This document shows, piece by piece, positions 37,458 through 62,777 of a stretch of DNA of 64,000 nucleotides. The notes beneath the pieces are model-generated. The model saw nothing but the letters and a program-made list of their open reading frames with translations, was not told the DNA's origin and ran no database searches. The DNA is from Sporomusaceae bacterium (GTDB taxonomy: Bacteria > Bacillota > Negativicutes > Acidaminococcales > JAJUGR01). The stretch lies in the NCBI GenBank assembly GCA_029265905.1, contig JAJUGR010000001.1, positions 1-64,000 on the forward strand, given 5' to 3'. Both the position numbers and the translations under genes were made by a program. Numbering within the stretch: position 1 is the first letter of the stretch; each line of letters starts with the position of its first letter.

Positions 37458-37504
37458 TTGGAGGGGGTGGGAATGAGAGGTGCGGAGCAAGCCATTGTTG
37501 CCTT

Positions 37505-37650
37505 CTGAGCGCTGGGGCTCGCAAATGGCGAGCTGACGAGGAAGAGGTTGTCGAATTGATCAGCGGATGCCTCTCGGTTGCCTGCAACCGCAAACAGCTT
37601 ACAAAACTGCCCGGCGACGGGCGGGACAAAATGGCTGCGGCAGGGGAAAT
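37505..37650 (+). ncRNA. glmS ribozyme: glmS self-cleaving ribozyme/riboswitch
   Basis: This leader of glmS fits the glmS ribozyme. The cleavage site would be A508/G509 in GAGCGCTGGGGCTC. P1 is GCTCGC (517-522) with GCGAGC (528-533). The core GACGAGGAAGAGG follows, with GTCGAATTGATCAGCGG, and P2 closes AGAGG with CCTCT. P3 is CGGTTG (575-580) with CAACCG (585-590). ACAAAACTG and GGACAAAATGGCTG form the distal P4 part around a CCCG/CGGG stem. GlcN6P-activated self-cleavage lowers glmS expression in known cases. Confidence 0.92.
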
Positions 37651-49636: not shown

Positions 49637-49675
49637 TAACAACGAATTGGGTTATTCTTGTAGTTGATAATTGAA

Positions 49676-49870
49676 TATGGGATAGGTGCCCACTGGGCTT
49701 AATAGGAAAGTTGGAAAAAGCCAACACGGTCCCGCCGCTGTAAGGGGAGTTTCCTGCAAATTGCCACTGAGACAAGACATGTCTTGGGAAGGCGCAGGAA
49801 TACGAAGAACCTGAGTCAGAAGAACTGCCTGTCTTACAATCGCCGTTTGACCCACGAATGATGGGAAGGA
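49676..49870 (+). ncRNA. Cobalamin riboswitch 1
   Basis: The region has the ordered cobalamin riboswitch elements: AGGTGCCCACTGGGCTTAAT, a variable stem TTGG/CCAA, CGGTCCCGCCGCTGTAA (the conserved GCCGCTGT), TTGGGAAGGCGCAGGAA, and the B12 box GAGTCAGAAGAACTGCCT (49813-49830), then GCCGTTTGACC. Adenosylcobalamin binding usually shuts off expression. It precedes a terminator and the porin/CbiK unit. Confidence 0.93.
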
Positions 49871-49940
49871 GATTATGCACGCGTGCACCAGGTTGTTCAG
49901 CTATGCCTGGATTTGTGATGTGTTTTGCCGGTCGTGACAT

Positions 49941-49979
49941 ACGAACCTTCCCGGAAATGGGGCGGTTCGTTTCTTTTTT
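49941..49979 (+). terminator. Riboswitch-controlled terminator (unit 1)
   Basis: ACGAACC (49941-49947) pairs with GGTTCGT (49964-49970), followed by TTCTTTTTT. Its place between the aptamer and the porin start makes it the likely expression platform. Confidence 0.8.
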
Positions 49980-50052
49980 AAGGCCTGCGCTGGAGAAAGG
50001 AAGCTCAAAATGTCGAGTGCAAGAAAGCTTAAATCAGGAAAGGTGGACTTAT

Positions 50053-51003
50053 ATGAAACAACGAATTACAGTTCTTTTACTGGCAGGCCTAACGGCGGCG
50101 ACGCCGGCTTATGCCGCGGAACCGGTAACCGTGAGCGGCGATGTTTCCGTCAAGTACGAGCACGACAAGGCGGATGGCGAGCCGTCAGTATCCGGCGGCC
50201 TGTACACCCTGCGCTTAAAAGGCGAGGCCGACCTTGGCGCCGGCTGGGGTTTGTACGCCCGTCTGGGTGCGCAGTATGCGACGAAACCATTGCAGGCCGA
50301 CTACAACCTGGACGCCTATGGCGAGAGCGAAAAATCGGTGGCGGCTCTGGATCAATTCGGTTTGACGTACAAGAACGAGCATAGCGAATACAAGCTGGGC
50401 CGCCAGGAGCTGGGAGTCGGCACGACGGCGCTTTTATACAGCCGCGCCGACAGCAATATCGGCAAGCATGCATTCGTCGACGGCCTGACGGCTTCCGGCA
50501 AGGTTGGCGCCACTGACCTGACGGCCGCGATCGCCCGCGAGGACAACGATGGTTCGCAGGACAACAAGGTCTACGCGATCCGGGGCGGCTTCCGCCCGAA
50601 TGACAGCTTCAACTGGGGCGTAACGCTCGGACGCTATGATGACAACGCCAACGGCGACTCCAACCATTGGGCGGTGGACGGCACGTACAAACAGGGCAAG
50701 CACAGCTGGACAGCGGAATTCGCCAAATCGAACCGTGGTAGCGAAAACAGGGCTTATGCGGCGAGCTGGAACTACGGGTTCAACGACAAGACGACCGCTT
50801 ACGTGACCGCTTTCCAGGTGGAGACGAATGCCGACATGGGGCAGCAGAGCGATTTTGACAACGGCAACCGGGGCGTTCATTACGGACTCACGCACCAGCT
50901 GGGCAAGGCGGACAGCTTGGAAGTGACGTACAAGGACCAGAAGGTTATCAGCAACGGGCAGAACAATGCCAGTTTTGAAGCGGTGTGGACGCACAGCTTT
51001 TAA
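50053..51003 (+). CDS. Porin-like outer-membrane beta-barrel protein
   Basis: The 316-residue protein has a signal peptide (about 1-20, ending ATPAYAA) and repeated amphipathic beta strands with Tyr/Gly-rich turns, such as YTLRLKGEADLGAGWGLYAR and SEYKLGRQELGVGTTALLYS. It ends FEAVWTHSF with a terminal Phe, the usual barrel-insertion signal. It probably forms an outer-membrane pore; the substrate is unknown. ATG 50053 follows AGGAAAGGTGG. Riboswitch control and cotranscription with cbiK suggest a role in cobalt or corrinoid supply. Confidence 0.82.
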   Translation: MKQRITVLLLAGLTAATPAYAAEPVTVSGDVSVKYEHDKADGEPSVSGGLYTLRLKGEADLGAGWGLYARLGAQYATKPLQADYNLDAYGESEKSVAALDQFGLTYKNEHSEYKLGRQELGVGTTALLYSRADSNIGKHAFVDGLTASGKVGATDLTAAIAREDNDGSQDNKVYAIRGGFRPNDSFNWGVTLGRYDDNANGDSNHWAVDGTYKQGKHSWTAEFAKSNRGSENRAYAASWNYGFNDKTTAYVTAFQVETNADMGQQSDFDNGNRGVHYGLTHQLGKADSLEVTYKDQKVISNGQNNASFEAVWTHSF

Positions 51004-51030
51004 TCATTATTGTTGAGAGGGTGTTATATT

Positions 51031-51987
51031 GTGAAGAAAAGTGTATGGTTAGCGATGTTTGTTTTTGTTATGTCTGCGTGTTTGGGCTTTGTGAATATGT
51101 CAAAAACGTACGCAGCAGCGAGTAATGAGGGTAAAAAGGCGATTTTGGTCGTCAGCTTCGGGACTACGCACGCAGACACGCGTAAAGTAACGATTGATGC
51201 AGTGGAAGATAAAATCCGGGCCGCATTCCCGGATTACGAAGTGCGCCAGGCGTTTACGTCACGCATCATCATCAAAAGAATTGCCGAAAATGAAGGTTTG
51301 ACGATTGATACCGAAAAACAAGCCTTGGCGAAGCTGAAGGCCGAGGGTTTCAGTGAAGTCATTGTCCAGCCGCTGCACATGGTTCCCGGTGATGAATATG
51401 ATAAGGTCAGGCAGCTAGTGGATCAATACAACCAAAAGAAAGTTTTCGACAAACTGTCCTTAGGGCGCCCGATCTTAGCTTTTTCCGGGCAGGAAGAGCG
51501 GCCGGACGACTACCAGGCGGCAATAACCGCCTTGCAAACGCAGCTGCCGAAGCTTATGCGCCGTGAAGCAGTCCTGTTCATGGGGCACGGCGGCAACCAT
51601 CCCGCCAACGCTGCTTATGCGGCTTTGCAGCTGCGCTTGCAGGATGCGAATGTGAAGAATGTTTTTGTTTCCACGGTGGATGGCGAAGGCTACCCGACGC
51701 TGGAGAGCGTCATCGCAAAACTGAAAGCCAATAAGATAAAAACTGTTACGCTCATGCCGCTGATGGTCGTCGCCGGCGACCACGCCAAAAACGACATGGC
51801 CGGTGACGAGAAGGATTCGTTCAAGTCGCAGCTTCTGGAAGCTGGATTTCAGGTGAAGACCTACCTGCATGGCCTCGGCGAGAATGCGGCCATCCAGGAC
51901 ATTTACGTTCAGCATGTGCGCGACGCCCAGGAAAATAAGTACAAAGAACGGAGCAAGGAACGTCCGGCCATCCCGGTGATCGACTGA
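51031..51987 (+). CDS. cbiK: Exported CbiK-type sirohydrochlorin cobaltochelatase
   Basis: CbiK inserts cobalt into sirohydrochlorin in anaerobic B12 synthesis. The 318-residue product has a typical CbiK core (KAILVVSFGTTHADTRKVTI, VIVQPLHMVPGDEYDKV). The two metal-site His are at 186 (MGHGGNHP) and 251 (VAGDHAKND). Unusually for a chelatase, residues 1-30 form a signal sequence ending KTYAAA, so it should be periplasmic, as known for CbiK(P) of Desulfovibrio. GTG 51031 follows GAGAGGG. It lies 27 nt after the porin gene. Confidence 0.9.
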   Translation: MKKSVWLAMFVFVMSACLGFVNMSKTYAAASNEGKKAILVVSFGTTHADTRKVTIDAVEDKIRAAFPDYEVRQAFTSRIIIKRIAENEGLTIDTEKQALAKLKAEGFSEVIVQPLHMVPGDEYDKVRQLVDQYNQKKVFDKLSLGRPILAFSGQEERPDDYQAAITALQTQLPKLMRREAVLFMGHGGNHPANAAYAALQLRLQDANVKNVFVSTVDGEGYPTLESVIAKLKANKIKTVTLMPLMVVAGDHAKNDMAGDEKDSFKSQLLEAGFQVKTYLHGLGENAAIQDIYVQHVRDAQENKYKERSKERPAIPVID

Positions 51988-51999
51988 TAGACTATGCGG

Positions 52000-52070
52000 G
52001 GCGGAGATAGGCTTCGCAAGCGCTGGCTCGCGTCGCGGACCGGCGTGGGAGCTGTCTAAACCCTTGCTAT
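52000..52070 (+). repeat. Dispersed structured repeat, copy B
   Basis: This is the second copy of the element at 49503-49573. AGATAG and CTGTCT are kept. The inner stem CGCTGG/CCGGCG and hairpin CGC-GTC-GCG differ from copy A in a way that largely preserves pairing. It follows cbiK; the rest of 51988-52259 holds a terminator and the ZIP gene leader. Confidence 0.55.
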
Positions 52071-52115
52071 CACCTCATGGGCGGTGAATATCGCCGGAAG
52101 CTTTTGGTGTGATGT

Positions 52116-52145
52116 CCCTTCTGCTTATGGAAGGGGCCTTTTTCT
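52116..52145 (+). terminator. Intrinsic terminator after the porin-cbiK unit
   Basis: CCCTTC (52116-52121) pairs with GAAGGG (52130-52135), followed by GCCTTTTTC. Confidence 0.7.
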
Positions 52146-52259
52146 GCCTCATCGGCGACTAAACCAACGATTGCACACTTGACAGGCTGGAAAATCTTTG
52201 TGACAATTGAGGTGAAAATTGTTATCAATTAAAACCGGTTCATATCTAGGGGGCATACG

Positions 52260-53078
52260 ATGGAATGGTTGCAGAGCTTTTCGCCGGTCGGGCAAACGCT
52301 GATCGGTACTTCCTTCACTTGGGGAATGACGGCGCTGGGGGCGGGGCTGGTCTTTTTCTTTAAAGCAATCGACAAAACCGTGCTGAAGGCGATGCTGGGC
52401 TTTGCCGCCGGCGTGATGATCGCGGCGAGTTTTTGGTCGCTGCTCGCGCCGGCGATTGAAATGGCGGAAGCGTCCGGCCAGAACGCCTGGCTGACGGCGG
52501 TAATTGGCTTTTTGGCCGGCGGCGCTTTTTTGTGGCTGGTTGACGTCACGCTGCCGCATTTGCACCGGGGCTTGGAGCGGGACAAGGCGGAGGGGATCAA
52601 GACCAGCTGGCAGCGGAGCGTCCTGCTCGTCCTGGCCATAACGCTGCACAATATTCCTGAGGGCCTGGCGGTCGGCGTCGCCTTCGGTGCTGTCGCCGCC
52701 GACCTGCCGTCCGCCTCATTGGCCGGGGCTGTGGCGCTGGCGCTTGGCATGGGGTTGCAGAATTTTCCGGAAGGCGCGGCCGTTTCCATTCCGCTCAGGG
52801 GCGAAGGGTTCAGCCGCACAAAAGCGTTTTTGTATGGGCAGGCGTCCGGCTTGGTAGAACCGCTCGCCGGTGTGCTTGGCACGGTGGCGGTCGGGGTAAT
52901 GCAGCCGCTCTTGCCATACGCCTTGGCCTTTGCCGCCGGGGCGATGATTTACGTCGTCGTGGAGGAACTGATTCCGGAGGCGCAGCACGAGGAGGGCGGC
53001 CGCGCTACCAATGTGGCGACGATCGGCTGCATGCTCGGTTTTGCCGTGATGATGATGCTTGACGTGGGGCTGGGATAA
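52260..53078 (+). CDS. ZIP family divalent metal transporter (ZupT/GufA-like)
   Basis: The 272-residue protein has about eight membrane helices and the ZIP metal-site motifs in helices IV and [21 protein letters not shown] and [33 protein letters not shown] segment near the end is also typical. ZIP carriers import zinc, iron, manganese or cobalt; which metal is not decidable here. AGGGGGC precedes the ATG. Its place between two B12-controlled units makes cobalt import a reasonable but unproven idea. It has no riboswitch of its own. Confidence 0.92.
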
Positions 53079-53095: not shown

Positions 53096-53125
53096 TTGAC
53101 TTTTTTCAAACAATTGTGATATCAT
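53096..53125 (+). promoter_or_regulatory. Promoter of the second cobalamin riboswitch unit
   Basis: TTGACT (53096-53101), an 18-nt spacer and TATCAT (53120-53125) with an extended TGA before it. The layout copies the promoter of riboswitch 1. Confidence 0.65.
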
Positions 53126-53149
53126 TTCAACGTTAATTGCATATCGATA

Positions 53150-53345
53150 GTGCAGGTGCCCGAAAGGGCGTAATAGAGAAGTCGGTTAAAGTCCGACGCG
53201 GTCCCGCCGCTGTAACGGTGAGCAAACCTCGTAAAAACCACTGGGAGCATTCCTGGGAAGGTGAGGGGCGCGATGATCCGGAGCCAGAAGAACTGCCTGC
53301 TCTGCAATCACCGTTTTGACCTACGAGCGATGGGGAGGGATTGAT
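53150..53345 (+). ncRNA. Cobalamin riboswitch 2
   Basis: The elements are the same as in riboswitch 1: AGGTGCCCGAAAGGGCGTAA, a GTCGG/CCGAC stem, GCGGTCCCGCCGCTGTAA, CTGGGAAGGTGAGGGG, the B12 box GGAGCCAGAAGAACTGCCT (53280-53298) and ACCGTTTTGACC. The 3' third is almost identical to riboswitch 1, pointing to duplication. It heads the TonB-ECF unit. Confidence 0.95.
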
Positions 53346-53390
53346 GACGAGCAAGCTTTTTCTGGCATTGCTATATGTCAGCGTATCCTT

Positions 53391-53422
53391 AGACCAGCCT
53401 ATAGGGCTGGTCTACTTTTTTT
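53391..53422 (+). terminator. Riboswitch-controlled terminator (unit 2)
   Basis: AGACCAGCC (53391-53399) pairs with GGCTGGTCT (53405-53413), a 9-bp perfect stem, followed by ACTTTTTTT. It lies between the aptamer and the receptor gene. Confidence 0.9.
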
Positions 53423-53475
53423 GCCGCAGAACTTATTTTTGTCATAACCACGGTTAGCGTTTGAGGAGGGGTATT

Positions 53476-55419
53476 GTGTTTATTGAGAAGTCCAAATACA
53501 CGGCCGCAGCGGCTTTGCTTGCTTGCCTGGTGACGGCGTCACCCGGCGTTCAGGCGGCGGAGAAAACGGAAGAAAAAACGGCGGAGTACGTCTTTGACCC
53601 GGTTTTGGTGACGGCGCAGCGCTATGAAAAGAGCGATCTGGAAACGCCGGCCTCCACCCAGGTGCTCACGGCGGAGAAACTGCAGGCGACCGGGGCGAAC
53701 AATTTGCAGGAGGCATTGAAGTATGCCGTCGGCATCACGTATCACGCCCAGGGGCCGGACGGACAGTCGTATAATACGATGACCAGCAAGATCATGATCC
53801 GCGGCGTGGAGCGGGGCACGCTTGTCTTATTGAACGGCGTGCCGATCAACATGAATGGCCGCTACAACCTGGAGGATATCCCGGTCAACATTATTGAAAA
53901 GGTCGAGATTATCCGCGGCGGCGGCTCCGTGCTGTACGGCAGCGAGGCGACGGGCGGCGTGATCAACATCATTACGAAGAAGACTCGCGCAAACAGCGTC
54001 GACGTATCGGCCGGCAGCGACGACCGCCAGCAGCACTCCCTCTCTGTCCAGGCAGACCAGTTCGGCTTGACGGCCTCCTACAAGAAGCTCGGCTATTTGG
54101 ACCAGGTTTCCGGGCCGTACAGCAGCACGGGAACCAACTACAAGTACAACGACTTCAACGGCTCGGAAAAGACGAACGTCTCCTGGGATTACGCTTTTAG
54201 CGACAGCCTGCGCCTGACGCACATCTACGCCAAGGGCTCCTATGGCTATACCTACCGGCCGCTTGCCAACCCGGCCACGTTTGACTACATGAAGGATTAC
54301 GAGGACGAGAAGCATTACCTGCAGCTCGCCTATGAGGGCAAAGACGGCCTGCAGGGCAAGCTGTACTGGAACCAAAAAGCGGTCACCGGCGACAAATACA
54401 ACAGCGCTTCTGTTTTGACGGAGCGCGCGGATACTGAAGACCGCGTGCTGGGCCTTGATCTGTCGAAGAAGTGGACGGTCGGTGAGAACCGGGTCGTGGC
54501 CGGCCTGGATTATCAAAAAGAACGCTACTATGACGACAGCCGCACGAAGCTGAATACGACGCCTGTTGAATCCATCACCGGCCCCTATTCCCGAGACCAT
54601 TACTCGCTGTTCGGCCAATGGGAGCGGGACATGAACAAGGCGACGACTGTGACCTTGAGCGCCCGGCAGGATTGGGTGCGCGGCGACCAGGAATCGGCCT
54701 TCGGGTCCGATTTCAGCCAGTTCAATCCGCAACTGCAGGTTCTGACCCGCCTGGACGCCGAGACAAGCTGGTACGCCAGCGCGGGGCGGTCGTTCATGAT
54801 GCCGACCCTGGCGCAGATGTACGGCTACGGCGACAACGTGCAGGCGGATTCCCAGCTGCGCCCGCAAAAGGGCATGAACTACGAGACGGGCTTAAAGCGC
54901 AACACGGGCGCGCATTCCTGGAAGCTGGCCGTCTTTAAGTATGATATTGAGGACTATATTTCGTTTACGGAAACGGCCAAGGGCAGCAAGATATACAAGG
55001 CGCAAAATGAAGACGTGCGCAACACCGGCGTTGAATTGAGCTGCGACGTCGCGATGGGCGGCGGCTGGAACGGCAACTGGAGCGTCAGCTATGGCAATCC
55101 GGAGCATAAGGAAAGCGGTTCGGATTGGGAGCGCCAGTACGGCCGCCTGCAGCTCACCTCCGGCGTCAGCTACGCAAGCGACAAATGGAATGCCGCGCTG
55201 ACAGCCAGCTATTTGGGCAAGCGCGTGGATGGCAATGAAGAAAGCCGCAAACCGATGCTCCTGACCGGACTTGACGTGCGCCGAAAGCTGGATGCGCAGC
55301 GGGAAATTTACCTGAATGTCGACAACGTGTTTGACCGGCGCGACATCGTCAGCCATGCAAGCTCCGAGTACTATGCGATGCCGCGCACCTTCCGTCTGGG
55401 CTACCGCATGTCGTTTTAA
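53476..55419 (+). CDS. TonB-dependent outer-membrane receptor, probably for a corrinoid
   Basis: The 647-residue protein has a signal peptide (about 1-27, ending GVQAA), a TonB-box-like stretch (DPVLVTAQR, about residue 42), a plug domain (about 45-165) with KIMIRGVERGTLVLLNGVPI and RGGGSVLYGSEATGGVINII, and a 22-strand-type barrel ending FRLGYRMSF with a terminal Phe. GTG 53476 follows GAGGAGGGG. The riboswitch and operon make cobalamin or a related corrinoid the best substrate guess (BtuB-like role). Sequence alone does not exclude haem or metal chelates. Confidence 0.92.
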   Translation: MFIEKSKYTAAAALLACLVTASPGVQAAEKTEEKTAEYVFDPVLVTAQRYEKSDLETPASTQVLTAEKLQATGANNLQEALKYAVGITYHAQGPDGQSYNTMTSKIMIRGVERGTLVLLNGVPINMNGRYNLEDIPVNIIEKVEIIRGGGSVLYGSEATGGVINIITKKTRANSVDVSAGSDDRQQHSLSVQADQFGLTASYKKLGYLDQVSGPYSSTGTNYKYNDFNGSEKTNVSWDYAFSDSLRLTHIYAKGSYGYTYRPLANPATFDYMKDYEDEKHYLQLAYEGKDGLQGKLYWNQKAVTGDKYNSASVLTERADTEDRVLGLDLSKKWTVGENRVVAGLDYQKERYYDDSRTKLNTTPVESITGPYSRDHYSLFGQWERDMNKATTVTLSARQDWVRGDQESAFGSDFSQFNPQLQVLTRLDAETSWYASAGRSFMMPTLAQMYGYGDNVQADSQLRPQKGMNYETGLKRNTGAHSWKLAVFKYDIEDYISFTETAKGSKIYKAQNEDVRNTGVELSCDVAMGGGWNGNWSVSYGNPEHKESGSDWERQYGRLQLTSGVSYASDKWNAALTASYLGKRVDGNEESRKPMLLTGLDVRRKLDAQREIYLNVDNVFDRRDIVSHASSEYYAMPRTFRLGYRMSF

Positions 55420-55424
55420 CCGCG

Positions 55425-57050
55425 ATGATGAAGCGTCTCATATTTTTATGCTGGCTGCTGGTGCTTCTGCCAAACGTTGCGTCAGCAGCGCCTCATCTTG
55501 AAGCGTTCTTTCCCTACCGTCTGGGCGGCGGGGAAAAGGCGGTAGCGGCCGGTTCGACCAACCCGCTTTACGTCTCCGTAGCCGGCGGGTTTGCAGAGGC
55601 GCAGGAAGTGGTGCTGGCGGTCGATTTGCCGCATGGCGTACGGCCGGTTGGAGCGCTTGAAGACGGCTGGCGAACAGACGAGGCGGGCAGCGGTCAGCGG
55701 CTGACACGCGTGCTGACGTTGGCGGCCGGATACGACAATTGGTTCGACTTGCTGAATTTGCAGACGGATCAGGCCGTCGAAGGAGAGCTGCAGCTTATCG
55801 TGGCGGCTTCTGGCAGGGATGGCGCAAGCCAAATGTCGCTGCCGTTTCGGGTTCAGCCGGCGCAAGATGGGGCAGCTAGGGTGCCGTGGCGGATAAAAAG
55901 CGTTGCGGTGCCGGTTGATTACCGCGGCGAGCGCGACGACAGACAGGCGGACCAGGTTGTTTATTTGCGGGATATGAGGCTTGAGGCGCTGCGCAGCCGC
56001 ATTACCGGCAAGGGGGAAGTTGATTGGGCTGCGCTCGATCGGCATCCCTTTGCGCATGTGGCGGTTGTGATTGCCAATCCGGCCGGCAGCCAGGAACTGG
56101 TGCGGATCAAGGCGGAGCTGTATGACCGGGCGACCGGCGAACTGCTGCCGGGCCTGGGCAGTGTCGCTCGCCAGCCGCTGGAGGAGCAACTGGGCGCCGA
56201 TGCGCTTGCGCAACAAGAAGAAAAAGCGGCCCGAGCTCTATTTGGACTGAACGGCGACCCGGAGCAGACGTTAGTGCTGCCGTTGTCCGGCGATACCGGG
56301 CGGCTGCCGGCGGGGCCGGTGGTCCTGCGCCTGACTTTGTCGGGCACGGGTGCGGAACAAATTATCGAAACGCCGCTGCAATTGGTATCGCGGCGCCAGG
56401 GCACGGCGGCGATTCTTGGCGGGGCGCTTGCGGCGCTGGTTGCGCTGGCCGCCTTCCTCACGCTTCGGGGCGCGCGCCTGTTCGACCAGCTTGGCGCGCG
56501 CGGCGTGATCACTGTCGCCCTGTTTGGCGCGGTGTCCTTCGGCGCGATAACGGTTCCGACCACACTGGCGGGCGACCTGCTGCACGTTTTGCTGGGGCCG
56601 TTTTCCGCACTGGCGAGCGGCCTGCTGAGTGGAGTTCTGCTCTATTTGTTCTTGCTGGCCTTGCACCGGCTCTATCCCCTGCCGGGCGTGGTGAGCTTGA
56701 TGCTTCTTCTGAAGTGGCTGCTCGCTGCCCTGGTTTTTGGACGGTTGTCGCTGGTTGGGCTGGGCTGCGTGGCCGTTCATGCCGTGCTGCTGGAACTTTT
56801 GTTGTGGGCTGGCGGCTGTTCGCGGGCGGCGCGGCGCCTGCCCGACTGGGGCGTGGCCCTTGCCTGCGGCCTGTTGGACATGGCGGTTACGTACGCCAAC
56901 TTGGAAATGATGATTTTCTTCTACCGGTTGTATTATGCTGACTGGTATATCGCTTTATATGTGTTAAGCAACGGCCTGCTGTACAGTTCGCTTGGCGCCT
57001 GGCTCGGCGGCCGGGTTGGCGAAAAGCTGGTGCGGGTAACGGGGGAATAA
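55425..57050 (+). CDS. Extracytoplasmic domain fused to an ECF S-component-like membrane domain
   Basis: The 541-residue protein has a signal-like N-terminus (about 1-22), roughly 300 extracytoplasmic residues rich in beta structure, then a membrane half with a span near 325-350 and about six helices from 360. The helical part (ITVPTTLAGDLLHVLLGPFS, LASGLLSGVLLYLFLL) looks like an ECF S component. It is directly followed by ECF A and T genes, which otherwise lack an S partner. I infer it is the substrate-binding subunit. The N-terminal domain is not recognised; it may receive substrate in the periplasm. Two ATGs, 55425 and 55428, are possible. Confidence 0.7.
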   Translation: MMKRLIFLCWLLVLLPNVASAAPHLEAFFPYRLGGGEKAVAAGSTNPLYVSVAGGFAEAQEVVLAVDLPHGVRPVGALEDGWRTDEAGSGQRLTRVLTLAAGYDNWFDLLNLQTDQAVEGELQLIVAASGRDGASQMSLPFRVQPAQDGAARVPWRIKSVAVPVDYRGERDDRQADQVVYLRDMRLEALRSRITGKGEVDWAALDRHPFAHVAVVIANPAGSQELVRIKAELYDRATGELLPGLGSVARQPLEEQLGADALAQQEEKAARALFGLNGDPEQTLVLPLSGDTGRLPAGPVVLRLTLSGTGAEQIIETPLQLVSRRQGTAAILGGALAALVALAAFLTLRGARLFDQLGARGVITVALFGAVSFGAITVPTTLAGDLLHVLLGPFSALASGLLSGVLLYLFLLALHRLYPLPGVVSLMLLLKWLLAALVFGRLSLVGLGCVAVHAVLLELLLWAGGCSRAARRLPDWGVALACGLLDMAVTYANLEMMIFFYRLYYADWYIALYVLSNGLLYSSLGAWLGGRVGEKLVRVTGE

Positions 57051-57052
57051 GG

Positions 57053-58705
57053 ATGATTCGGCTGGAACACGTTGGCTTTACGTACCCGTCGCGCAAGGAA
57101 GCGACGCTAAGCAATATCAATATCGGCATTGGGCAGGGTGAACGCGTTTTGATCGCCGGGCGGACCGGGTGCGGAAAAAGCACCCTGCTGAAAATAATCA
57201 ACGGATTGATACCCGGCGCCAGTCAGGGCCAGTTTACGGGCAATGTCTGGCTCGACGGCGTCAATACGCGCGAGGCGCGGCCGGATGAGATCGGCTTGGT
57301 GGTTGGAACGCTGTACCAGTCGCCGGACGACCAGATTTTTGCCACGACGGTTTGGGATGAAGTGGCGTTCGCGCTGGAAAACAGGGGGATTGCGGCTGAA
57401 TTGGTGCGGGAGCGGGTGGCGACCGTGCTGGCTCAAGTAGGCCTGTCCGGCTACGAGAAGCGCAGCGTGCATGCCTTGTCGGGAGGGCAGCGCCAGCGCC
57501 TGGCGCTGGCGGCCGTGCTGGCGACAAAACCGTCCGTGTTGGTATTGGATGAACCTATAAGCCAATTGAACCCGGCCGGCGCGGCCAGTTTGCTGCAGCT
57601 GCTGCTGAACCTGAATGAAACGGAACAGATGACGCTGATCGTCGTCGAGCACCGCGTGCACGAACTGTACCGGTTTTTCCCACGCCTGATTTATCTGGAG
57701 GGCGGAGCGGTCGTCTATGACGGTGCCATCGAGCAAGCGTGGCAGACGTTCGAACGGCCGCTGGCCGGCTTGCGGGAGCCGGAAACGGTACGGATCTGCC
57801 GAAAACTGCGGGTGTTGCCGCCGGAAGCGGACTGCAACCGCGCGGCGGGCAGGATCGTGCGGTCCTATCCTCGTTTTGACGGACGGGCGCAAGCGAAGGC
57901 GGCGAATTTTTTCGCGGGCGGGGCGAAGCCGGTTGTAGTGGCGGAATGCCTTTCGTACGCTTACGAAGGGCAGGCCAGACCGGTGCTGCGGGAGCTTTCC
58001 TTTTGCGTGAACGAACGGGAAATCGTCGCCGTCATGGGGCAAAATGGTGCGGGAAAGTCCACGCTGCTTTCGCTTTTGGCGGGCCTGGTCCGCCCTCAGG
58101 GCGGTTCAATCCGTTATGCGCCGGACAGCGGCGGACAAGGCGGCGTCGGCTTGCTGCGGCAGGATACGGACCTGATGCTGCTGCATCCGACCGTTGGCGA
58201 GGAAGTGGGCCTTCGGTCGGACGACGTTTTGCCGGAGGCGTCCCAACGCCTGCTGGCATGGCTTGATTTGGCAAAATTGCGCCACGATTTTCCGCTCGCC
58301 CTCAGCCGCGGCCAGCGGCTGAGGGTTGCGCTGGCCGCGTTGTTGGCGAACCGTCCGCGGGTGCTGTTGCTGGACGAGCCGACAACCGGGCAGGATTATG
58401 AGAGCCTGGAAGATATCCGCCGTATTTTGCGCGCCTATCGCTACAAGGGCGGCACAGTTTTGTTCTGTACGCATGACGTTGAATTAGCGGCGGAGCTTGC
58501 CGACCGGGTTGTTTTGCTAAAAGACGGACAGGTGGCCGCGCAGGGAGCGGCGCGGGAGCTTTTGACAGAAGAAAAATGGCTGCAGGCAGGCGGCTTGATA
58601 CCGACGCCGCTTGCGGCCTTGTGCCGTTTGTTGCATTTGCCGCCGAGGACGGGACAAAGGGAGGTGTGCCGCCTTGTCAGCAAGACTGCTTTGGGAGGGG
58701 GCTGA
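57053..58705 (+). CDS. ECF transporter ATPase, two nucleotide-binding domains fused
   Basis: The 550-residue protein carries two ABC domains. Domain 1 has Walker A GRTGCGKST (about 36-44), Q-loop YQSPDDQIFATTVWDEVAFA, LSGGQRQRLALAA and Walker B VLVLDEP. Domain 2 has GQNGAGKST (about 336), a signature LSRGQRLRVALAA with Arg for the usual Gly, LLLDEPTTGQD and switch His FCTHDVELA. Fused double ATPases are typical of dedicated group I ECF transporters. It starts 3 nt after the S-like gene and overlaps ecfT by 32 nt. Confidence 0.93.
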   Translation: MIRLEHVGFTYPSRKEATLSNINIGIGQGERVLIAGRTGCGKSTLLKIINGLIPGASQGQFTGNVWLDGVNTREARPDEIGLVVGTLYQSPDDQIFATTVWDEVAFALENRGIAAELVRERVATVLAQVGLSGYEKRSVHALSGGQRQRLALAAVLATKPSVLVLDEPISQLNPAGAASLLQLLLNLNETEQMTLIVVEHRVHELYRFFPRLIYLEGGAVVYDGAIEQAWQTFERPLAGLREPETVRICRKLRVLPPEADCNRAAGRIVRSYPRFDGRAQAKAANFFAGGAKPVVVAECLSYAYEGQARPVLRELSFCVNEREIVAVMGQNGAGKSTLLSLLAGLVRPQGGSIRYAPDSGGQGGVGLLRQDTDLMLLHPTVGEEVGLRSDDVLPEASQRLLAWLDLAKLRHDFPLALSRGQRLRVALAALLANRPRVLLLDEPTTGQDYESLEDIRRILRAYRYKGGTVLFCTHDVELAAELADRVVLLKDGQVAAQGAARELLTEEKWLQAGGLIPTPLAALCRLLHLPPRTGQREVCRLVSKTALGGG

Positions 58706-59558
58706 CAGTGCGCTTTGGGCAAGAAAACTCGATGGGCGCACGAAAGTCTGCCTGTTGGCGGCGGCGACCGTGCTGGTGATTACAATCGACCGCCCGGCGA
58801 CGCTGTTCGCCTTGTTCACGCTGGCGCTTTGCCTGCACGTGGCGGCGGGAACGCCGGCGTCCAAGTGGGAGGTGCTGGGGGCTCTGCTCCTGATCTGCTT
58901 GTGGGGGGCGGTCGCCAGCCAGGGGCTTTTTTACGCGCAGACGCCGAGAACCCCGCTCGTTTGCTTTGTCTCCCCGGCCTTTCCGGTTTTGGGGCCGCTG
59001 ACGGGCGGCGTGTTTTTGTATCGAGAGGGGTTGGCTTATGGCGCGCTGCAGGGCATGCGCTCGGCGACGATGCTGTGCCTGGGACTGTTTGTCTGTTGGA
59101 CGAGTGATCCGCGTGCGTTGCTGAACGCGTTCGTTTCTTGGCGCATGCCGCCCATGGCCGCCTTTATGGCGGTGACGGCGCTGCGCTTTTTGCCGGTGCT
59201 GGCGGCGGAGGGGGAAGAAATCATGATGGCGGCCCGCCTGCGCAAGCGTGCGGCTGGCGTGCCCTTTCGCGCGTGGCACTGGCTGGCGTTTTTGCCTAAA
59301 TTGGTATATCCGCTGCTGGCCCGTTCGCTCCGCCGGGCGCAAACCCTGTCGCTATCGGTTTTAAGCCGTGGTTTTGTGAATTACCGGCCTGCCGTGCAGC
59401 AGCAATGGCCTTGGCCGGAAAAACTGTTTTCCTGCTTGCTGTTGGCGGCAGCGCTGCTGGCCGTGCTGATGAAGCTTTTTTATGCGCTGGCGGAGCAAAG
59501 CTTGTTTTATTGGTCGTCTGGCCGGCCGATTTATGATTTTGCGAGGTTGTGGCTGTGA
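58674..59558 (+). CDS. ECF transporter T component (dedicated)
   Basis: The 294-residue membrane protein has five to six helices and the coupling region MMAARLRKRAAGVPFRAWHW with LARSLRRAQTLSLSVLSRGF, where the EcfT Arg motifs are expected. It is clearly diverged from the general EcfT encoded at 17495-18298. The TTG at 58674 is chosen because AAAGGGAGGTG lies 8 nt upstream inside the ATPase gene. Its TGA overlaps the next GTG (GTGA). Confidence 0.88.
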   Translation: MSARLLWEGADSALWARKLDGRTKVCLLAAATVLVITIDRPATLFALFTLALCLHVAAGTPASKWEVLGALLLICLWGAVASQGLFYAQTPRTPLVCFVSPAFPVLGPLTGGVFLYREGLAYGALQGMRSATMLCLGLFVCWTSDPRALLNAFVSWRMPPMAAFMAVTALRFLPVLAAEGEEIMMAARLRKRAAGVPFRAWHWLAFLPKLVYPLLARSLRRAQTLSLSVLSRGFVNYRPAVQQQWPWPEKLFSCLLLAAALLAVLMKLFYALAEQSLFYWSSGRPIYDFARLWL

Positions 59559-60937
59559 GAGGTTGGAAGATTGCGGTTTTCTTAGCCAGCTGGCTTTTGC
59601 TCGGCTGGCTGTCATGGAAGGATCAGCCCTTTCTTGCGCCGCAGACAGGATTGCGCGCGCAGGACGTCGTCGTACCACTGGGGGACGTTCCCGCGCTCGA
59701 ATACGGGCGGATGGGCTTTACCAAAGGCATCGTCAAGGCTTCGCCAGCCAATGACGGCTGGGTGGTCGGGACGGACACGGGCAGGCTGCTGTGTTTTGAC
59801 CGGGAGGGCCGGCAAAAATGGCAGCGCCCGATGGGCCTGGGGAAAATAACCGCCGTCGCCTACAGCAATGATGGCCGGTTTGTGCTGGTGGGCGAAAAGA
59901 GCCCGAGCGGCGACGTCCACTTGCTGTCGGTTGCCACCGGCGAAGTGCAATGGACGTACTCGGCGGCGGAGACGATCGGCACGGCGCTGGAACTGCGCTC
60001 CTACCCGTCAGTGGCCAGAATACAAACGGATGAAGCAGGAAACTTTTATCTGGCGGTGTTCCGCTACGCCCGCAATGCGGACGGGATAAGCGAATATATC
60101 GGCCGGATTTGCTCGCTTACCCCCTCCGGAGAGGAGCGCTGGCGCTTTCCAGACAAGGAGTATATGGACGCCTGGGCCAGCTGGTTTGCCGTCGATCCGG
60201 AGGGACGGTCGCTTGTGTTCGCAACGGCCAACTTTGAAACGAAAGTCAAGCTTCGCTATCCGGCCAATTTATATTGGCTGAATGCCGCAAGCGGCGAACA
60301 GCTCGAAGAAAAAAACATTGAACCGATCGCCCCCTACGTCAAGACGGTCATGCGTGGCAGTCCGAACTACGGTGGCGACGGACAGTTGCTGGCGGCGATG
60401 GCCAGCGACGGGCGCGCGTTTGTCTACAACCGGCAGGGGCAACTGCTGTGGGAGCGGCAAATCAGCCGTCCGCGGCAGGTAGGGGGCGCCTGGGTCAATG
60501 CGATCGGGCGGGACGGCTTCCCGACTAAGCACGGCATATTATTCACGACCATCAACACGTACAACCGGGATAACTGGAATTTGTCGACCCCGGTCGAACA
60601 TCCTTCGTCCAACAGCGTCTTCATGTTCGACGAAGCGGGCCGGTTCCGCTACCAGTGGCGGGCCGCCGGCAGCATTGAGGAGTTGGATTTTGCCGGCTCG
60701 CTGGCGGCGGTTGCCGTCGGCCGCAATGTGCGAACAAAGAATACCGAGGCGCACAGCGCCGTAGTGCTGCGCCTGGAAGACGGAATGGTGCTGGACAGCC
60801 TGGCGATGGATGGGCCTTGCCAGAGCGTGGCGATTTCGCCGGATGAAAAGACGATCGCCGCCATCGAAGCGCCGGCGCTGATGCCGGACGGACGGATTAT
60901 CGGGTCTTACCGGCTTCATATCCATAACCTGAAATAG
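59555..60937 (+). CDS. Membrane-anchored beta-propeller (PQQ/WD-like repeat) protein
   Basis: The 460-residue protein has an N-terminal uncleaved anchor (about 5-20, IAVFLASWLLLGWLSW) and then repeats of the type DGWVVGTDTGRLLCFDREGR, YSNDGRFVLVGE, DGRAFVYNRQGQLLWERQIS and FDEAGRFRYQWRAAG, the pattern of a seven- or eight-bladed propeller. It should face the periplasm. No enzymatic residues are recognised. Its place between ecfT and exbB suggests a substrate-handling or scaffold role in the uptake path. GTG 59555 overlaps the ecfT stop; GTG 59549 is an alternative. Confidence 0.8.
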   Translation: MRGWKIAVFLASWLLLGWLSWKDQPFLAPQTGLRAQDVVVPLGDVPALEYGRMGFTKGIVKASPANDGWVVGTDTGRLLCFDREGRQKWQRPMGLGKITAVAYSNDGRFVLVGEKSPSGDVHLLSVATGEVQWTYSAAETIGTALELRSYPSVARIQTDEAGNFYLAVFRYARNADGISEYIGRICSLTPSGEERWRFPDKEYMDAWASWFAVDPEGRSLVFATANFETKVKLRYPANLYWLNAASGEQLEEKNIEPIAPYVKTVMRGSPNYGGDGQLLAAMASDGRAFVYNRQGQLLWERQISRPRQVGGAWVNAIGRDGFPTKHGILFTTINTYNRDNWNLSTPVEHPSSNSVFMFDEAGRFRYQWRAAGSIEELDFAGSLAAVAVGRNVRTKNTEAHSAVVLRLEDGMVLDSLAMDGPCQSVAISPDEKTIAAIEAPALMPDGRIIGSYRLHIHNLK

Positions 60938-60956
60938 GAGAAAGGAATGATTTGGC

Positions 60957-61589
60957 ATGAACGGTTTTTCCCAAGCGCTTTACCTGTTTGAAAAAGGGGG
61001 GCTGGTGATGTATCCGCTGCTCTTTTCGTCGATTGCGGTGGTTGCCATAGCTGTTGAACGGTGGTTTTTCTTCCGCTCGATGGATGCGCAGGGGCAATTT
61101 GCCGATGAGATTGCCGACAAGCTGCAGCGCGACGACTGGGAAGGGGCGCGGGCGGCGGCCGTTCAGGCCAAGGGGGTATTGGCGAGGATATTGTGCGACG
61201 CCTTTGCGGCCAACGGACTGAAAAAGGCCGGCCTGGAGGCGATGCTCAATACGCGCGCCACGCTGGCGGTGGCCGATCTGCGCAAGCGGCTCGGCTATCT
61301 AGGCATGATGGTGACCATGGCCCCGCTGTGGGGGCTGTTGGGAACGGTTGTCGGCATGATTTCGTCCTTCAACGTCTTCGCCCTGCAGGCGGGCGCGCCG
61401 CATGCCATTACCGGCGGCGTGGGCGAGGCGCTGATTGCGACAGCGACCGGCTTGTGCGTGGCGCTCGTTTCGCTGGGCGCCCACAGCCTGTTTGCGCAGT
61501 GGCTCGATTCGATGCTGTCCGACATGGAAAAGTGCTTTGCTATTTTGCTGGAGGCAGCGGCGCGGAGGGACGACGATGCGGCTGCGTAA
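60957..61589 (+). CDS. exbB: ExbB/MotA/TolQ family proton channel protein
   Basis: ExbB forms the pentameric inner-membrane motor that energises TonB with the proton gradient. The 210-residue product has three membrane segments (about 18-38, 118-140, 155-180). The family signature LGYLGMMVTMAPLWGLLGTV and GMISSFNVFALQAG precede GVGEALIATATGLCVALVSL. It is followed by exbD with a 14-nt overlap. Confidence 0.92.
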   Translation: MNGFSQALYLFEKGGLVMYPLLFSSIAVVAIAVERWFFFRSMDAQGQFADEIADKLQRDDWEGARAAAVQAKGVLARILCDAFAANGLKKAGLEAMLNTRATLAVADLRKRLGYLGMMVTMAPLWGLLGTVVGMISSFNVFALQAGAPHAITGGVGEALIATATGLCVALVSLGAHSLFAQWLDSMLSDMEKCFAILLEAAARRDDDAAA

Positions 61590-61992
61590 CTGGCGCGAAC
61601 AAAAGCAGCCCGACCTGATGATCATTCCGATGATCGACATCATGTTTTTTTTACTCGTCTTTTTCATGATCAGCACGATCTATATGGTCGAGCAGCGAAG
61701 CCTGCCGATTCAACTGCCGAAGGCGGAGCAGGCCGCAACGGACAATAAGCCGGCTTTCGTCGTGACGATGCGCGAAGACGGCACGCTGTGGCTGGAGGAC
61801 AAGCAAATTGCCGCCGAGGCGCTGGCCTGGCAGGTGAAGCTGGAGAGCCGCCGCAATCCGGCGTTTGCCGTGCTGCTGCGCGCTGACGAACGGGCCTCCT
61901 ACGGACAGGTGGTAGCCGTTCTCGATTTATTGAAGCGCTCCGGAGCGGAGCGCTTCGCGCTGGCTACGGAAAAAGGCGGGAGCGGGTCATGA
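61576..61992 (+). CDS. exbD: ExbD/TolR family protein
   Basis: ExbD is the peptidoglycan-facing partner of ExbB. The 138-residue product has one N-terminal span with the essential membrane Asp in PMIDIMFFLLVFFMIST (about residue 21) and a periplasmic domain ending DLLKRSGAERFALATEK. ATG 61576 lies inside the end of exbB after CGGAGGG. The stop overlaps the tonB ATG. Confidence 0.92.
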   Translation: MRLRNWREQKQPDLMIIPMIDIMFFLLVFFMISTIYMVEQRSLPIQLPKAEQAATDNKPAFVVTMREDGTLWLEDKQIAAEALAWQVKLESRRNPAFAVLLRADERASYGQVVAVLDLLKRSGAERFALATEKGGSGS

Positions 61993-62729
61993 TGATCGCG
62001 GGCAAGAAACGATTTGGGTGGGGGCTTGGGGTATCCTTCCTCGCCCACTTGCTGTTGTTTGTGCTGGTCGCCTTCTTTGGCGGCCGGACGCCGGCAACGC
62101 CAGCGCCGGAAAAGGAACAGGTCTTTGCCGTTGAATGGGTTGGAGGCGGCGGAGGCGGGAGCGGCGCATCGGTAGACCCGATTGCGGCGCCCGCCAGCGT
62201 TCCGCCCGCCGGCAGCCGCGCCGACAACGCGGCCATTACGGACAGCCGCCTGGCGCAGGCGGCGCGAACGCAAGGCCAAGCAAGTGAAGCGGCTGTGCCG
62301 ACCGTAAACGCGCAGGCGGGCTCAATGGCGGCCAATGGCGCTGGCGGTGCGGGAAGCGGCGGCGGAGGCGGCGTTGGCGCGGGCAGCGGCGATGGGACCG
62401 GCCCGGGGAACGGCAACGGCGCGGGCGGGAGTGGTTCCGGCGTTGCGGAACAGCCGGCCGTACCGCCGCGGTTAACCAAGCATGTCCAGCCAACCTATCC
62501 GGAAGCGGCCCGGCGGGCCGGGCAGACAGGCAGGGCGCTGCTGCGCCTCTTGGTGTCTTCGGCAGGCCGGGTAAGCGAGGTCGAGGTCGTTCAGTCCTCC
62601 GGCTCTGCCGCTTTGGATGACGCGGCCAGCGCGGCGGTCGAACGCTGGCGGTTTTCGCCGGCCAAGGACGGATTGAACCGCGCGGTAGCCTGCTATATTA
62701 CTGTGCCGGTGGCCTTTTCTCTGGATTAG
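61989..62729 (+). CDS. tonB: TonB with a glycine-rich periplasmic linker
   Basis: TonB transmits energy from ExbB/D to the receptor. The 246-residue protein has an N-terminal anchor with the expected SFLAHLLLFVLVAFF span (His in the membrane, about residue 20), a long low-complexity linker (about 50-160) and a TonB C-terminal domain with PTYPEAARRAGQTGRALLRL and VVQSSGSAALDDAASAAVER. The linker is Gly/Ala/Ser-rich rather than the Pro-Glu/Pro-Lys type of E. coli. It closes the operon. Confidence 0.92.
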   Translation: MMIAGKKRFGWGLGVSFLAHLLLFVLVAFFGGRTPATPAPEKEQVFAVEWVGGGGGGSGASVDPIAAPASVPPAGSRADNAAITDSRLAQAARTQGQASEAAVPTVNAQAGSMAANGAGGAGSGGGGGVGAGSGDGTGPGNGNGAGGSGSGVAEQPAVPPRLTKHVQPTYPEAARRAGQTGRALLRLLVSSAGRVSEVEVVQSSGSAALDDAASAAVERWRFSPAKDGLNRAVACYITVPVAFSLD

Positions 62730-62742
62730 GCAGATCGGCATT

Positions 62743-62777
62743 GCCGCTTTGGGCGTTGGCTCAGGGCGGCTTTTTTT
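62743..62777 (+). terminator. Intrinsic terminator of the TonB-ECF operon
   Basis: GCCGCTTTGGGC (62743-62754) pairs with GCTCAGGGCGGC (62759-62770) over 12 positions with some G-T pairs, followed by seven T residues. Confidence 0.88.

Follow-up and report, generated by a model that had tools for sequence, protein, structure and literature searches.

A cobalamin-riboswitch-led operon that joins a TonB-dependent uptake system to an ECF transporter was analysed in the window, the 64,000-nucleotide stretch of DNA examined here, and with moderate confidence it is regarded as a corrinoid (cobamide/cobinamide) importer, namely a dedicated ECF variant that works together with a TonB system of its own. 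A corrinoid as the substrate and import as the direction are what we infer. The reading draws on the riboswitch, the BtuB-like type of the receptor, the riboswitches of related loci, the corrinoid-related neighbours of the ECF genes, and one genome in which the ECF genes are the only evident partner of the receptor.

Organization of the riboswitch-led operon

All the parts named in the preliminary description (receptor, S-component-like protein, fused ECF ATPases, ECF T protein, propeller protein, ExbB, ExbD and TonB) were recovered in one riboswitch-led unit with the aid of Rfam, Pfam and NCBIfam (Table 1), and the junctions after the receptor (+5, +2, -32, -10, +19, -14 and -4 nt) agree with the overlaps or gaps of at most about 20 nt it had given. 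The protein it had termed S-component-like is likewise present, although it is really a 541-aa two-part protein with no Pfam or NCBIfam match. The aptamer is followed in the sequence by a terminator hairpin, an arrangement that would place the operon under ligand-dependent control.

Upstream, at 49667-53078, a second riboswitch heads the genes for a porin and for an exported CbiK, which end in a terminator at 52114-52137; a ZIP metal transporter gene follows, which has a promoter-like site of its own, and the unit looks like one for cobalt acquisition. Elsewhere, the window holds a glmS ribozyme/riboswitch (37497-37649) and an S10-Clostridia ribosomal leader (203-285).

Table 1. Features of the operon and of the preceding unit, in window coordinates.
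Feature	Position	Strand	Evidence
Second cobalamin riboswitch, heading the porin-CbiK unit	49667..49846	+	RF00174, 96.8 bits
CbiK-family cobaltochelatase with signal peptide	51010..51987	+	PF06180, 338.8 bits; signal read from translation
Sigma-70-like promoter, TTGACT-18-TATCAT, extended -10	53096..53125	+	Consensus scan, weak alone; just 5' of the riboswitch
Cobalamin riboswitch aptamer	53137..53314	+	Rfam RF00174, 109.1 bits against a threshold (gathering score) of 31.5, E 2e-26
Expression-platform terminator hairpin, 11-bp, then T run, CTTTTTTT	53390..53414	+	
BtuB-like TonB-dependent receptor	53476..55419	+	Likeliest start GTG, Shine-Dalgarno-like sequence before it, open frame from 53461; Pfam, NCBIfam, PDB
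S-like protein, 541 aa	55425..57050	+	AF2, hydropathy, conservation
Fused EcfA-EcfA' ATPases	57053..58705	+	TIGR04520 and motifs
EcfT membrane subunit	58674..59558	+	PF02361; likeliest start TTG, Shine-Dalgarno-like sequence before it, open frame from 58611
Predicted inner-membrane-anchored beta-propeller, PQQ/BamB-like	59549..60937	+	PF13360
ExbB	60957..61589	+	PF01618 (MotA_ExbB)
ExbD	61576..61992	+	NCBIfam TolR/ExbD models; likeliest start ATG, Shine-Dalgarno-like sequence before it
TonB	61989..62729	+	PF03544 (TonB_C)
Intrinsic terminator at operon end, 12-bp	62743..62770	+	-23.9 kcal/mol, z -4.12

Receptor and TonB motor

The receptor is composed of plug and barrel domains (PF07715 and PF00593 in Pfam), and its six top PDB matches are all BtuB. 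Its best NCBIfam model, TIGR01779, scores 157.7 bits against the BtuB equivalog cut-off of 599.7, and because of this shortfall the receptor can, on its sequence, be named BtuB-like only. It is the sole PF00593 match in the window's genome, TonB is the sole TonB_C match, and the MotA/ExbB family has two members there, the ExbB of the operon and another on contig C6. As far as the assembly shows, the receptor and the TonB of the cell are located in this operon only.

ECF module, S-like protein and propeller

The fused ATPase reaches 323.8 bits with TIGR04520, over the ECF cut-off of 315, and its chain carries two Walker A, two LSxGQ and two DEP motifs. EcfT belongs to the EcfT/CbiQ family (PF02361, 81.2 bits, E 1e-22), and its best NCBIfam model is CbiQ, with a score under the cut-off of that model. 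In the operon and in the other loci read, the S, A and T genes are contiguous, which is the dedicated (group I) ECF arrangement; further EcfT genes exist elsewhere in the window's genome, and the ECF module here is probably used exclusively by the 541-aa S-like protein.

In the AF2 model of the S-like protein (mean pLDDT 84.9), a signal helix is seen, residues 24-322 form beta domains and long helices follow from 325; the beta domains, behind the N-terminal signal peptide, are predicted to form an extracytoplasmic beta-sandwich. Hydropathy over 33 relatives revealed an anchor segment at 328-346 followed by about six membrane segments from 359 to ~525, the first of which contains an AxxxA (A365 in 26 of 33 rows, A369 in 23 of 33). 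AxxxA is the EcfT-contact motif of S-components, and by position, topology and this motif, rather than by homology, the 541-aa protein is the candidate S-component. It is conserved in bacteria and archaea, and H387, E457, D485, Y500, R501 and W507 are invariant or nearly so in the alignment of 33. Its placement in a known S-component family was tried and abandoned: Pfam, NCBIfam and PDB sequences gave no match, the family profile meeting no S-component in the PDB up to E = 1, and hhalign gave no link to BioY, a TrpP-like S-component or CbiM (probability 0.2% for CbiM). In a fold search with the model, the first 50 matches were Ig-like proteins, with Ig-like domains dominating, and a ligand was not indicated.

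In the propeller model (mean pLDDT 91.9), residues 3-24 form a TM helix, and the beta-propeller is extracytoplasmic by prediction; its H351-P352 pair is invariant in the alignment, from bacteria through to one archaeon. A periplasmic role as a capture or docking part is suggested for it. Its fold search returned generic WD40 and BamB-like propellers with no ligand indicated, and a weak NCBIfam match to 'PLuB' led to no identity.

Distribution and phylogeny of the four-gene core

The S-like, EcfAA', EcfT and propeller genes, which constitute the four-gene core, occur together in nearly all loci read. The S-like protein is present in 49 of the 301 genomes of the class sample, the window's own included, and in 24 of 97 genera; with the window's genome excluded this is 48/300 in the class, versus 2/398 in a profile search of genomes from elsewhere in the phylum (Fisher p about 1e-16). 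Named carriers include Phascolarctobacterium faecium, Dialister succinatiphilus, Succiniclasticum ruminis, three Sporomusa and Anaerospora, the more distant carriers being MAGs from Deltaproteobacteria, Omnitrophota and Thermoproteota. The Thermoproteota MAG loci (L138 and L139) harbor S-like, EcfAA' and EcfT genes, and L138 also has a propeller gene and adjoining cbi methyltransferase genes. The plasmid and viral collections yielded no relative.

A branch with 100/98 support sets the window's group, here termed group 1, apart from the others in a tree built from 43 S-like sequences; group 1 has the gene order S-AA-T-propeller. The remainder, termed group 2, is paraphyletic, with the propeller upstream in most members, and two archaea stand apart.

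Gene neighbourhoods of the core

Within neighbourhoods of about 20 kb, Rfam detected cobalamin riboswitches in 17 of the 22 group-1 loci tested versus none of seven in group 2 (Fisher p 0.0005), the 17/22 being a non-random figure, since group-1 loci were partly picked by a riboswitch motif and three of the seven picked without it had a riboswitch. Rfam was used in place of a B12-box motif search, which gave false positives in group 2. The riboswitch is located directly 5' of the S-like gene in L059, L072 and L077. In the stretch scanned, no B12 riboswitch was detected at four group-1 loci (L054, L056, L080 and L117), three of which have CobN or Mg-chelatase-like genes nearby.

Among 42 group-1 loci (one of which, L088, falls in group 2 by the tree), the neighbours counted, as rough lower bounds owing to contig ends and open-frame choice, were a TonB receptor in 25, cbi/cob genes in 12, CbiK in 11, CobN in 11, TonB in 8, a CbiR-like gene in 6, ExbB in 6 and CbiZ in 3. 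CbiZ (PF01955), CobN and a PF01261 protein were confirmed as neighbours by Pfam, and the last is probably CbiR (PMC7733943). The link between the TonB and ECF parts, which the preliminary description had proposed to follow across genomes, recurs, 25 of the 42 group-1 loci having a receptor close to the core and several having ExbBD/TonB. The two parts are also separable: some loci have no receptor and show the core immediately after a riboswitch of its own, and in archaea the core stands without TonB genes nearby. The pairing is not refuted by these cases, and the separability of the core from TonB fits an inner-membrane transporter.

For group 2, CobN was found in 9/10 loci, ChlI/D in 7/10 and TonB receptors in 7/10, and the receptors of L122 and L133, both of those tested, fit a hemin model best. 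Group-2 cores with CobN were seen in L067, L089, L091, L122, L125, L132, L133 and L135, several with ChlI/D and TonB receptors in addition and with no B12 riboswitch in those scanned; such cores are perhaps a haem or metalloporphyrin system. In many Acidaminococcaceae-type loci (L041, L045, L047, L049-L052 and L056), the S-like gene is preceded by the gene of a lone FecE/BtuD-like ATPase that has no recognised permease at its side. A DrrAB-like ABC-2 exporter pair adjoins the core in both groups (L053, L082, L114, L122, L125, L130 and L132).

Cobalamin genes of the genome and the place of BtuCDF

Four cobalamin riboswitches were detected in the window's genome (2.42 Mb, 98.8% complete): two lie in the window, and the others precede cobT and gltX, the one before gltX at G000:C40:16564-16694 (locus L065); gltX is the Glu-tRNA source for tetrapyrrole synthesis. 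The genome also harbors a full cbi/cob cluster on contig C10, so that corrinoid import would not be obligatory for this organism, a separate CbiMQO on C14, and, on C29, a single FecCD system, adjoining CbiL and including BtuF-like and BtuD-like genes. The latter is not near any of the four riboswitches, and no FecCD-type permease occurs within the operon.

It had been proposed that the ECF machine takes the place of BtuCDF, and as a general rule this replacement was rejected, because a FecCD permease is present in 48 of the 49 core-bearing genomes, including the window's own (47/48 of the others), in which the FecBCD/BtuFCD-like system by CbiL is retained. The proposal seems to hold in the sole exception, G022 (estimated 100% complete). 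The single receptor gene of this genome lies in the core locus, where a cobalamin riboswitch precedes it and where the genes for ExbB, ExbD, TonB, S-like, EcfAA', EcfT and propeller stand in one run. No BtuC/FecCD permease was found in G022, its only two PF01032 matches being ZnuB-like and LivH-like, and for its receptor the hemin-receptor model gives a slightly higher score than the B12 model does. Lacking a BtuC-type permease, G022 leaves the ECF transporter as what seems the sole evident inner-membrane partner of its receptor, in this one genome, and another, unrecognised permease may be present. The accompanying statement that ECF machines are known mainly from one-membrane Firmicutes needs qualification, as two-membrane bacteria also have ECF systems and CbiMNQO was first found in Salmonella, a two-membrane bacterium (PMC7689651).

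Proposed function and alternative readings

The corrinoid reading is based on the riboswitch, the BtuB-like receptor type and the group-1 riboswitches, and further on the neighbours: CbiZ and CbiR-like enzymes, which act on imported corrinoids, together with CobN, CbiK and cbi/cob operons. It is also based on G022, where one receptor, a B12 riboswitch, the core and ExbBD-TonB coexist without FecCD, on the separate CbiMQO for cobalt in the window's genome, and on the concentration of the core in an outer-membrane-bearing class. ECF-CbrT is known to transport B12 and cobinamide in an ATP-driven manner, hemin does not compete with corrinoid for it (PMC5997447), and BtuG is a precedent for a beta-propeller that binds corrinoids (PMC10404256). 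When Dehalobacter is starved of corrinoids, an operon under a B12 riboswitch that holds CbiZ, CobN and Mg-chelatase genes together with a transporter of the FepBCD/BtuCDE type is raised 346-fold (PMC4285132); by analogy, the ECF core would fill the transporter slot of such an operon.

When adenosylcobalamin is scarce, the riboswitch would let transcription proceed past its terminator, and the BtuB-like receptor, powered by its own ExbB-ExbD-TonB, would take a corrinoid across the outer membrane. The anchored propeller and/or the S-like beta domain may then pass the corrinoid, now in the periplasm, to the S-like membrane domain, from which EcfT and the fused EcfA-A' ATPases would drive it into the cytoplasm. 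Several points speak against this reading: the organism makes its own corrinoids, the FecCD-type system by CbiL could be the corrinoid importer, L054, L056, L080 and L117 showed no B12 riboswitch in the stretch scanned, the G022 receptor scores slightly higher with the hemin model, and the S-like protein has no sequence link to the S-components with which it was compared.

Cobalt import, in which the receptor takes up chelated cobalt and the ECF core works as CbiMNQO does, bringing Co2+ into the cell for de novo corrin synthesis, is considered not very likely. The core does occur within cbi biosynthesis operons and beside CbiK in 11/42 loci, CbiQ is the best NCBIfam model for EcfT, the neighbouring unit holds a porin, an exported CbiK and a ZIP metal transporter, and B12 riboswitches control cobalt uptake too, with cobalt-specific TonB receptors having been predicted (PMC7689651). 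However, CbiMQO is separately present in the window's genome, free cobalt would be of no use to the CbiZ and CbiR-like neighbours, the S-like protein is unlike CbiM, the CbiQ model scores below its cut-off, and a bare metal ion would not usually call for a receptor and a large extracytoplasmic apparatus.

The window's clade is separate in the tree (100/98) and mostly B12-regulated, its receptor is nearest to BtuB in both PDB and NCBIfam, and CobN and ChlID are absent from the window operon, all of which render it unlikely that the operon belongs to a general metal-tetrapyrrole importer whose cargo is haem or another tetrapyrrole in some members, perhaps in the window's; in its favour stand the group-2 relatives with CobN and ChlI/D, hemin-model receptors and no B12 riboswitch, the slightly better hemin-model score of the G022 receptor, and HmuS, a CobN-like protein that takes iron out of haem (PMC12583661). 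It appears improbable that the TonB and ECF parts are co-regulated only, the receptor's cargo entering via FecCD by CbiL and the core carrying another compound related to B12, for example a precursor of the lower ligand: the FecCD system by CbiL, a FecCD permease in 48/49 core-bearing genomes and the lone FecE/BtuD-like ATPase 5' of the core in many loci would fit, yet none of the four cobalamin riboswitches in the window's genome lies near its FecCD system, and G022 unites riboswitch, sole receptor and core without FecCD.

Beyond the corrinoid reading of this operon, a broader proposal, tentative and somewhat short of likely, is that a so far unnamed class of metal-tetrapyrrole ECF importers exists in bacteria and Thermoproteota, with an S subunit bearing large extracytoplasmic beta domains and an anchored propeller, in which one clade is B12-riboswitch-controlled and TonB-coupled for corrinoids and the clades with CobN/ChlI/D and hemin-type receptors serve haem-like compounds. 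Many two-membrane bacteria with BtuB have no BtuCDF, and their inner-membrane route for B12 is open (PMC6072759). The core offers a concrete candidate for an inner-membrane B12 transporter with a dedicated TonB system in the gut genera Phascolarctobacterium, Dialister and Succiniclasticum and in Sporomusa. To our knowledge, classical ECF systems have no extracytoplasmic capture part; this would be an ECF transporter with one, and through the archaeal relatives the inner-membrane step would also exist in cells where the core shows no TonB genes nearby.

Comparison with known systems

The operon was not filed as CbrT, BtuB, CbiMNQO or BtuCDF, because defining features of these systems were tested for and not found. 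No description of the core emerged from the openly accessible literature searched (ECF with TonB and B12), and a prior mention may exist. ECF-CbrT and the predicted CbrTUV are likewise ECF-type ABC importers tied to B12, but CbrT comes from the one-membrane Lactobacillus and shares a group-II module, whereas the operon has dedicated fused ATPases, a 541-aa S-like protein with no detected similarity to solved S-components, a propeller and a TonB system; S-component homology was not detected, and CbrT was set apart via the PDB profile search rather than by the CbrT sequence itself. With BtuB-TonB-BtuCDF the operon shares a BtuB-like, ExbBD-TonB-driven receptor and B12 control, but it differs in encoding an ECF module for the inner-membrane step, in a receptor under the BtuB cut-off, and in having TonB and ExbBD inside the operon. 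CbiMNQO resembles it in having ECF ATPases and an EcfT/CbiQ-family protein encoded close to B12 genes, whereas the operon is without CbiM and CbiN and its S-like protein is unrelated by profile comparison.

BtuM is also an alternative inner-membrane B12 transporter of two-membrane bacteria adjoining BtuB (PMC6072759), but it is a small, solitary protein of ~22 kDa, whereas the S-like protein has large beta domains and lies in an EcfA/EcfT operon. The Geobacter lovleyi CobN-ExbBD-TonB clusters and the Dehalobacter CbiZ-CobN-Mg-chelatase operon-2 are similar in B12-related uptake and in gene content (PMC3403914, PMC4285132), though the cited passages name FepBCD/BtuCDE or no inner-membrane importer, and not this ECF core. 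The Bacteroides surface lipoprotein BtuG likewise brings a beta-propeller to a TonB-dependent corrinoid system (PMC10404256); it sits outside the cell on BtuB, whereas the operon propeller has an N-terminal TM helix and adjoins ECF genes, and BtuG is a functional precedent rather than a demonstrated relative.
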